This document shows, in pieces, positions 52,715-56,109 of a DNA stretch of 64,000 bases. Source of the stretch: Humisphaera borealis. GTDB taxonomy: Bacteria > Planctomycetota > Phycisphaerae > Tepidisphaerales > Tepidisphaeraceae. The stretch's first letter is position 1. Every line of letters begins with the position of its first letter. The stretch spans positions 930,001-994,000 of the forward strand of contig NZ_CP063458.1 of NCBI RefSeq assembly GCF_015169395.1. The letters run 5' to 3'. The notes below the pieces were generated by a model that was not told the DNA's origin, searched no databases, and saw only the letters and a list, made by a program, of their open reading frames with translations. A program made the translations under genes and the position numbers.

Positions 52715-53446
52715 TCATTTCGAGGAGATCGGCATCGCTGGGAGTGCGTTCATCCGGACATCCTGCTCCGACGACAGGTCGCTCAATACCCGCCCGTCCT
52801 TCATGCGAACTACGCGCTTGGCATGCCGTGCCACGTCGGGCTCGTGCGTGACCATGATGATCGTCTGGCCCGAGCGGTGCAGGTCTTCGAAGAGCGCTAG
52901 GATCTCATCGCTCGTTCGGCTGTCGAGGTTGCCGGTCGGTTCGTCGGCGAGCAGGATCGCCGGGTCGTTGATCAGCGCCCGCGCGATCGCCACCCTCTGC
53001 CGCTGACCGCCGGATAGCTGGTTGGGCCGGTGCTTCATGCGATCGGCAAGGCGGACCTTGGTCAGCGCGGCCCTGGCGCGGGCCGACCGCCCCCACCAGC
53101 CGGTGCGGCTGTAGAGCAGGGGAAGCTCGACATTCTTCAGCGCCGTCAGACGGGGCATCAGTTCGAAGCTCTGGAAGATGAAGCCGATGCGGTCATTGCG
53201 AACGCGGGCGAGTGCCGCAGCGCCCATGCGGGTGACGTCATTGCCGTCGAGCTCGTAGGTGCCGTGCGTCGGGCGGTCGAGGCAGCCGAGGATGTTCATC
53301 AGCGTGCTCTTGCCCGAGCCGCTGGTGCCCATGATCGCGACGTACTCGTTCTGCTCGACAGTCAGACTGACACCATCGAGGGCGCGGATCTGCTCCTCGC
53401 CGACGACGTAGTGCTTGTGGATGTCGGTCAGGCGGATGACGGGCAC
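52715..53446 (-). CDS. ABC transporter ATP-binding protein, MacB/LolD type
   Basis: 243 residues from a GTG two bases after the adaptor stop. Walker A is [12 protein letters not shown], the Q-loop [12 protein letters not shown], the signature [15 protein letters not shown], Walker [14 protein letters not shown] and the switch His [12 protein letters not shown]. The N-terminal [21 protein letters not shown] is characteristic of the MacB/LolD/FtsE subgroup of lipoprotein-release and efflux ATPases. The FtsX-like permease that should complete the unit does not follow; the next gene is SMI1/KNR4. It may lie elsewhere in the genome. Confidence 0.9.
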
Positions 53447-53448
53447 GG

Positions 53449-54966
53449 TTAAGTCGTAAGGATGACGGATGAAGGGTGAAGGATGAACAGGGACGACGTT
53501 TCGGGTCGCGTGGATGGGACGGTTGCGGGCATCGTTGCGGGATTCGTCGTCGGCAGGGTCGCCGGCATGATCGCGGGAATCTTGGGAGCGACGTCCTGCT
53601 TCTTGACCTCCTGCCCGTTGGTCATCGTATCGAGCGCCTTGTAAGGGCCGCTGATGATCAGGTCGCCGGCTTTCAGCCCCGACAGGATCAGCGTGTGCGT
53701 CTCATCGCTCGCCCCTGGCTTCACGGGGGTCGCGACGGCCTTGCCGTTGACGTATCGGTAGACGATCGCGACGAACGCCTTGTCCTTCTCGATCTCCGGC
53801 GCGTTCTTCGCCTCGGCAGGCAACTGATCCACCGGCCGGCCGAGCACCGACTGGCTCGGCACACGAATGCCGCTGTGCCGGTTGGTTTCGATGTCGGCGT
53901 CGGCGTTGAGGCCGGTCGGGATGCGCCGTCCGTCGGTCTTCAGCAGGATCTTCGCCTCGTAATAGTTCGCGCCTTCGGTGGTGCGCGAATTGGAAGCCGT
54001 CGGATCGGCCTTGGCGAGCGCGACGGATTCGACCGTGCCTTCGAACGTCTCGTCCCGGTACGCCTGGATGCGGACGGTCGCCTTCTGCCCCGGTTTGACG
54101 GCGGCGATGTTGGCTTCGTCGATCCGCGCGACCATCAGCATCTGCGACAGGTCGGCGACTTCCATGATCGTCGACCCGACGCTGCCCTGAATGCCCGGCA
54201 CCACCTGCTCGCCAACTTCCGCTTTCAGCTTCGTGATCACGCCGTCGATCGGCGACGTGATGACGGTATACGCCAGTTCGTCGCGGGCCTTGGCGATGTC
54301 GGCGTCGGACGCTTCCTGCTGGTGCAGCAGCACCTGAAGGTTCTGCTCCTCGGATTTCAGTGTCTCCTGCGCACCCAGGTATTGGGCAAGGATGTCTTCG
54401 TAATGGGCCTGTGCGGTGTCGGCTTCCGACTGCGAGATATCCTTCGTTATCGCCAGCTCGCGCTTCTTGTTCATGTCGCGCTGGGCATCGGCCAGTTGCG
54501 CCTTGGTCCCATTGAGCTGTGCCCGCTGGGCGGCGATCCGCAGTTCGTTCACCTTCAATTGGGCCGCCTGCGCCTTGGATCGCGCTTCGGCCGACCGCAA
54601 CGCCGACTCCAGGTCCTTCGCATCCAGCCGCACCAGGAGCTGATCCTGGCTGGGCTGCGTTGTGCCCGGCGGGGTTCGTCGGACGGTGTCACCCTGGATG
54701 TGCGGCAGTTCGGCGATTCGCGCCGCCACGCGCGAGCTGATCGACACCTTCGTCCGCGGCTGGATTTCCCCGGGCACGCTGATCATCTCGACCAGCGGGC
54801 CCGACACGACCGGCTCCACCCGGACCGTCTCCTGGCCGGTGTCGTTGGCCATCGCGTTGCGACTGATGACCATGCCGACGCCCACCAGGGTTCCGACCAC
54901 CAGCAGGACGCACACAATGACTATGATGGCGATCTTCAATGGGGTGCTCACAAACTCCGCGACCAC
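53449..54966 (-). CDS. Efflux periplasmic adaptor (MacA/HlyD-like membrane-fusion protein)
   Basis: 505 residues. A GTG start with GGGGAGG close upstream; a GTG at 54951 ([10 protein letters not shown]) is an alternative. One membrane anchor ([21 protein letters not shown]) is followed by lipoyl/barrel parts ([20 protein letters not shown]), a long coiled coil ([20 protein letters not shown] to about residue 235), [20 protein letters not shown] (second lipoyl half) and a beta-barrel ([20 protein letters not shown]). The last 40 residues are Thr/Pro-rich ([20 protein letters not shown]) and end in LFILHPSSV, coded by a short GGATGAAGG-type direct repeat near 53460. It pairs with the ATPase downstream. 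Confidence 0.88.
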
Positions 54967-55044: not shown

Positions 55045-55149
55045 TCATTTCTTCTCCGGCGTCTCCGATTTAGGCGTTTCCGATTTTGCGGCGTCTGGCT
55101 TGGGCGCATCCTTTGGCGCGTCCGGCTTCACTTCATCCTTTGGTTTCTC
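55045..55149 (-). other. In-frame continuation after the amber codon
   Basis: Reading on from the TAG gives EKPKDEVKPDAPKDAPKPDA and AKSETPKSETPEKK, then TGA at 55045-55047. The Lys/Pro/Asp/Glu-rich pattern continues the tail before the stop (PAKDGPAKDAKKD). Either a GAG, AAG or CAG codon has mutated to TAG or the stop is read through. Confidence 0.8.
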
Positions 55150-56109
55150 CTAGTCCTTCTTCGCGTCTTTCGCAGGACCGTCCTTTGCGGGCTCGTCACG
55201 CAGCGGCACCTTGAGCTCGTCGAGCGCCTTCTCGCGGCGCTGCTCCATCTCCTTCAACTGCTTCTGCTGCACGTCCTGCTGTTTCGCCCGCAGCTGCTCG
55301 ATCTGCTCGATAATCTTCGCCCTGTGCTCGGCGGGAATGTTGGGGTCTTCCTGCAGCTTCTCCAGCACCTTCTCCATCGCCTTCACCTGCGCTTCGGCGA
55401 CCTTCTGTTCAACCTGAACACCGCCGGCGAAACCCCGGGGATTTCCGCCGTTGATGAAGACCTGGCCCTGAAATCCGGCATTGCCCCCCAGCTGGATGGT
55501 GAACGCGCCGCCCGGCCCGCCGTTGTTGTACTTCTCGTAAAGCGCGAACGCCTCCGGGTTTTCCTTCTTCAGCTCGTCGGCGTCCTTGGCTCTGTAGGTT
55601 TCGGTGACGGGCTTGTCGTCTTCAACGCCGGTCACGTCGAGGACGATGCCCTCGGGCCCCTGGCGGATCTTGATCTTGTAGCCGTTGTCGTCGACATCGA
55701 CATTCCGCTGCCCGTTCACCATCGACACGCTGACGCTCTGGCGATGGGCGTTGCCGTCCTTCGCCGGGGCGGCGGGGGGGAGACGACGCTCGGCCTTGCG
55801 GATCAGGCTGCGCACCCGGGCGCGAACCTCGGGGTCGTCGGCGTCCTTCGATTGCTTGAGTGTCGGCACGGCCGACTTGCCCAGCTCCAGCAGCTTCTTC
55901 GAAGCCGCTTCGCGTATTGCCGGTTCACCGCTCCCGAGCTGGTCGATCAGCGCCACCACGGCCGGGTCCACCGGCTGCGGCTTTTCCGCTGCCGGCTGCA
56001 CGTCCGGCGCCGGGGCGGCAGGGGCCTTGTCCACGTCTGCCGCCCGCACCCCGGCGGTCGCGAGGCCCAGGAGTGTGAAACCCGTCAACGCCAATCGAAA
56101 CGTGCGCAT
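55150..56109 (-). CDS. Secreted HEAT-like/charged protein ending at an in-frame amber codon
   Basis: 319 residues from the ATG at 56109, with AAGGA six bases upstream. Signal peptide MRTFRLALTGFTLLGLATAG. Residues 40-120 resemble a HEAT/ARM-like helical pair (VVALIDQLGSGEPAIREAAS, VPTLKQSKDADDPEVRARVR), the middle is a beta-rich part (QSVSVSMVNGQRNVDVDDN), and the end is a long charged helix (HRAKIIEQIEQLRAKQQDVQ) with the tail DEPAKDGPAKDAKKD. The TAG stop at 55150-55152 is followed in the same frame by 34 more codons of the same composition. See the separate entry. Confidence 0.75.
   Translation of the reverse strand: MRTFRLALTGFTLLGLATAGVRAADVDKAPAAPAPDVQPAAEKPQPVDPAVVALIDQLGSGEPAIREAASKKLLELGKSAVPTLKQSKDADDPEVRARVRSLIRKAERRLPPAAPAKDGNAHRQSVSVSMVNGQRNVDVDDNGYKIKIRQGPEGIVLDVTGVEDDKPVTETYRAKDADELKKENPEAFALYEKYNNGGPGGAFTIQLGGNAGFQGQVFINGGNPRGFAGGVQVEQKVAEAQVKAMEKVLEKLQEDPNIPAEHRAKIIEQIEQLRAKQQDVQQKQLKEMEQRREKALDELKVPLRDEPAKDGPAKDAKKD

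Follow-up and report, generated by a model that had tools for sequence, protein, structure and literature searches.

In the window analysed here, a 64,000-nucleotide stretch of the Humisphaera borealis genome, a gene on the minus strand reads GAC-TAG at 55152..55150 and then continues in the same frame through exactly 34 sense codons to a TGA at 55047..55045 (Table 1). An earlier sequence-only reading of this DNA had reported an amber codon followed by 34 in-frame codons up to a TGA, and both its coordinates and its codon count are exact. It offered two explanations, a very recent nonsense mutation or the programmed read-through of a secreted protein's tail. We favor, with a probability of roughly 0.77, an ordinary nonsense mutation, wherein a single base change created an amber codon within a disordered tail that is dispensable. 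As a nonsense mutation the event would be unexceptional, adding one more bacterial stop codon in a place where many codons sit one step from a stop.

Table 1. Features of the amber-terminated gene, its neighbors and an IS630-type transposase. Positions are those of the window unless a locus is named.
Feature	Position	Strand	Basis or remarks
Putatively truncated gene, 319 residues + TAG	55150..56109	minus	start ATG at 56109
Amber stop TAG, context GAC-TAG-GAG	55150..55152	minus	sequence
Putative post-TAG tail, 34 in-frame sense codons, EKPKDEVKPDAPKDAPKPDAAKSETPKSETPEKK	55048..55149	minus	frame reading; compositional outlier
TGA, presumed former stop	55045..55047	minus	sequence
Imperfect 15-base tandem repeat, KSETP twice	55058..55086	minus	1.9 copies, period 15
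HlyD-type membrane-fusion protein, downstream neighbor	53449..54966	minus	HlyD_D23, 55.5 bits
ABC transporter ATPase, next neighbor	52715..53446	minus	ABC_tran, 122.8 bits
IS630-type transposase	L121 5412-5909 (genome C1 about 1286411-1286908)
IS630-type transposase, G005 copy	L176 1501-1995

Neither Pfam nor NCBIfam gave a match to the 319-residue protein. Its layout consists of an N-terminus that by eye resembles a signal peptide, a short HEAT-like helical part, a beta domain, long C-terminal helices and a disordered tail. The protein had been called secreted, which is plausible, the basis being this signal-peptide-like N-terminus as read by eye. In a structure model built from a four-sequence alignment (mean pLDDT 61.7), helices fall within residues 49-106, residues 123-174 form the beta domain, long helices occupy 233-299, and everything from 301 onward is disordered. 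Residues 301-354 have pLDDT values of 34-37 in blocks of ten on either side of the TAG, and disorder is thus predicted both before and after the amber position. A fold search with the model gave no matches at E <= 0.001, and the weak best matches above that threshold were mostly HEAT-type helical repeats. A simple scan for a terminator between the gene and its downstream neighbor found none.

To place the tail among other post-stop sequences, we drew a survey sample from this genome. It comprised the window and a further 120 stretches of 20 kb, 2.464 Mb in all or about one third of the 7.19 Mb contig, and 1631 genes were called in it by a simple in-house script based on open reading frames and codon usage, and not taken from annotation. 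For 1609 of these genes the post-stop frame closes within the sampled stretch; in 733 of them it stays open for at least 34 codons, and openness of this length is by itself unremarkable in a GC-rich genome. It is the composition of the tail that stands far outside the distribution. Its fraction of K, D, E and P residues is 0.735, as compared with a mean of 0.184 (sd 0.070), ranking first among the 733 extensions with the runner-up at 0.44. When the bases of the tail were shuffled 200,000 times, 87,666 of the shuffles were open and none reached this fraction. A version of the survey covering 2.064 Mb compared extensions of at least 15 codons, not overlapped by another called gene, with the 20 residues that close their own genes; here too the tail ranks first, of 482, for similarity in composition (0.816, the next being 0.739). 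Codon log-odds are +6.2 in frame, with the five remaining frames between -2.9 and -19.7; on codon log-odds alone the tail is not exceptional, as some other extensions score above it. Taken by composition, shuffles and survey rank, the post-TAG sequence reads as an in-frame continuation of the protein. Because the composition is far outlying, and not because the frame is open, we consider that the 34 codons past the TAG were very probably coding until recently.

These figures bear directly on a reading in which the TAG is an old, true stop and the codons beyond it are non-coding, resembling the tail either fortuitously or because the tail was duplicated across the stop. Open runs of 34 codons are indeed common after stops, as counted above, but the composition is unmatched in any of the open shuffles or in the 732 other extensions, and both listed self-matches lie inside the tail, neither spanning the TAG. 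An old stop of this kind is extremely unlikely. Elsewhere, the 75 codons that follow the TAG of L096 17928-19910 (minus) look by eye like a signal-peptide start fused to a sulfatase-like C-terminus, and are perhaps the remnant of a deleted gene.

The tail has a repetitive character of its own. Internal repeats lie in register with the codons at offsets of 27 and 15, and a score as high as theirs arose in 1 of 300 base shuffles and in 8 of 300 shuffles of codon order. The two copies of KSETP are encoded by AAA TCG GAA ACG CCT and AAA TCG GAG ACG CCG and differ at two sites, both synonymous third positions. This is a weak hint that the tail may have been translated after the duplication, and it counts as a point against a nonsense mutation insofar as continuing translation of the tail would be equally consistent with these two differences. 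GC3 is 0.62 after the TAG versus 0.85 in the preceding 34 codons. We rejected this drop as a clock for the mutation; it is uninformative, given that the three gene tails richest in K, D, E and P in the sample have a GC3 of 0.68 and that GC3 is at or below 0.62 in 42 of 498 genes.

A nonsense mutation would have proceeded as follows. In the ancestral gene, a disordered tail of some 54 residues would have followed the long C-terminal helix and run as far as the TGA at 55047. A single base substitution would have turned a sense codon into the TAG at 55152, the candidate ancestral codons being CAG, AAG and GAG, each one step away. RF1 would then end the protein 34 residues early, with leakage no greater than the background of any stop codon. 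Truncation would probably be tolerated because the part lost is low in complexity and predicted to be disordered, and the sequence past the TAG would not yet have drifted from coding composition. The tail is an easy place for such a mutation because a single base change would turn 16 of its 34 codons into a stop (TAG in 10 cases), versus 93 of 319 codons in the gene body. From these 16 sites we roughly estimate that about 0.13 substitutions per site would leave the frame an even chance of still being open. The proposal of a very recent nonsense mutation can thus be separated into its parts: a nonsense mutation fits everything found, while "very recent" is only loosely bounded. The sense codon in the ancestor, the tolerance of the loss and its recency are all three things that we infer, and no relative carrying a sense codon there turned up in our searches.

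One wrong base in the assembly would give exactly the same picture. Under this explanation, a base-call or assembly error lies at 55150-55152, and the real gene has a sense codon there and runs to the TGA. Against this, the assembly consists of a single 7.19 Mb contig that looks closed, and single-base substitution errors in assemblies of this kind are rare. We regard such an error as improbable.

Relatives with the same C-terminus were sought at two levels. None was found in 26 order-level genomes (E <= 0.001) or in 397 class-level genomes (E <= 1e-8; drawn from a larger group), and two further scans of genome contigs found no relative with this tail. Three order-level homologues (in G015, G021 and G023) share 29-33% identity with it in the aligned region, which is mainly N-terminal. 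These HEAT/beta/PDZ proteins of related planctomycetes (L008, L009 and L010) have N-terminal helices and a beta domain as in the window protein. In two of these, L009 and L010, a PDZ domain follows the long helix, whereas the window protein has its K/P/D tail at that place; the sequence of L008 is cut by the end of its contig. G005, the only other member of the genus in the order search and 65% complete, gave no match to the gene and none to its HlyD neighbor. HlyD homologues with 47-56% identity are present in G021, G023 and G015, and no relative of the gene was found within 1.5 kb of them on either side.

Functional read-through would have some ribosomes decode UAG by a near-cognate tRNA, yielding a second isoform with a charged tail of 34 residues. 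The frame and composition kept intact past the TAG would be expected of such a gene. In-frame stops surrounded by sequence under purifying selection have been reported in bacteria, in the cases of a 2021 study (PMC7918605) in whose worked example Paenibacillus species carry either TAG or CAG. As in those cases, the stop of the window gene lies inside a frame that reads as coding on both sides. Unlike them, it lies near the end of the gene, in a disordered tail, and while the stops in that study were backed by orthologues in at least two genomes together with dN/dS, no orthologue of the tail was found here.

The termination machinery argues in the opposite direction. TAG is a normal terminator in this genome, ending 28% of the called genes (458 of 1631, alongside 886 with TGA and 287 with TAA). 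The tRNA search returned 78 Rfam places, 70 of them above the cut-off. ARAGORN, run on L035-L064 and L070-L109, the loci holding these 70 above-cut-off places, identified no CTA (CUA) anticodon, and none was seen by eye in the one above-cut-off place that ARAGORN missed (4478890-4478942) or in the weak places. The check for an amber suppressor tRNA gene, called for by the sequence-only reading, was thus negative. No pyrrolysyl-tRNA synthetase was found, the best PylS match scoring 21.6 bits against a cut-off of 178.15. RF1 is the best reading of L065, which scores 399.2 bits, just under the cut-off of 400 (NF001859), and 389-390 bits against a cut-off of 423 (TIGR00019), versus only 213 bits with the RF2 model; RF2 is present as a separate gene. 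Stimulatory RNA structure is common at programmed read-through sites, though not obligatory. The RNA around the TAG is less structured than every one of 200 shuffles (z +2.29), and we rejected RNA structure as a read-through signal here. Because the tRNA, PylS, RF1, TAG-usage and RNA-folding results are all negative for read-through, near-cognate leakage, common to any stop codon, is the only route left past the UAG. Programmed read-through accordingly gained no positive support, and functional read-through of the tail is in our judgment unlikely.

Two groups of tRNA-like sequences were observed during this search. A cluster of about 15 tRNA genes at L071 8732-10583 (genome C1 4478731-4480582) consists of tRNAs that score below most of the scattered tRNAs of the genome and whose anticodons largely repeat theirs; it resembles an additional set of tRNAs, perhaps a mobile one. 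In L091, two weak tRNA-like matches lie close together (genome C1 3975149-3975314 and 3975456-3975543), one of which extends over 166 bases, as though its anticodon loop were interrupted.

Sequence context offers a further point on both sides of the read-through question. GAC-TAG-G ends only three called genes in 2.46 Mb, and two of these, the tail gene and an IS630-type transposase, have a coding-like continuation. That the transposase of the same genome shares this context, and that its G005 relative has a stop at the same codon with a dN/dS of 0.28 below it, favors read-through. The third gene, L209, is a counter-example, as it has only a non-coding-looking extension of 11 codons; the context was also singled out post hoc, and we rejected it as a read-through context. 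A broader proposal, that the genus may read through stops in contexts such as GAC-UAG-G to produce long and short secreted isoforms and a full-length IS630 transposase, seems to us very unlikely. Should the tail be read through after all, it would represent a rare case of a bacterial chromosomal gene with functional UAG read-through, from a phylum that has received little study.

The transposase itself (L121, DDE_3) has the strongest coding-like post-TAG continuation in the survey. Its TAG, which in G000 shares the GAC-TAG-G context of the tail gene, comes directly after a conserved MD motif (VLIMD-TAG-AGWHKS), the aspartate of which we take to be the second catalytic residue. The copy in G005, a genome of the same genus, is 72% identical in amino acids and has a TAA at the very codon where L121 has TAG. 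Other relatives carry CAG (among them nine copies in G074), CGC or a glycine codon at this position. When the two stop-bearing copies are compared, dN/dS is 0.19 above the stop and 0.28 below. This pattern may mean that nonsense mutations struck this codon twice, or that an old stop here is read through. A run of CCCCCTTTTTG occurs where the transposase frame changes in both G000 (L121 5340-5365) and G005 (L176, before the match at 1501), and it is also kept in the nine G074 copies (L184, L187 and L189-L195). We propose this run as a candidate slippage site, of the kind known for IS630 elements, in which frameshifting is described in PMC5009743.
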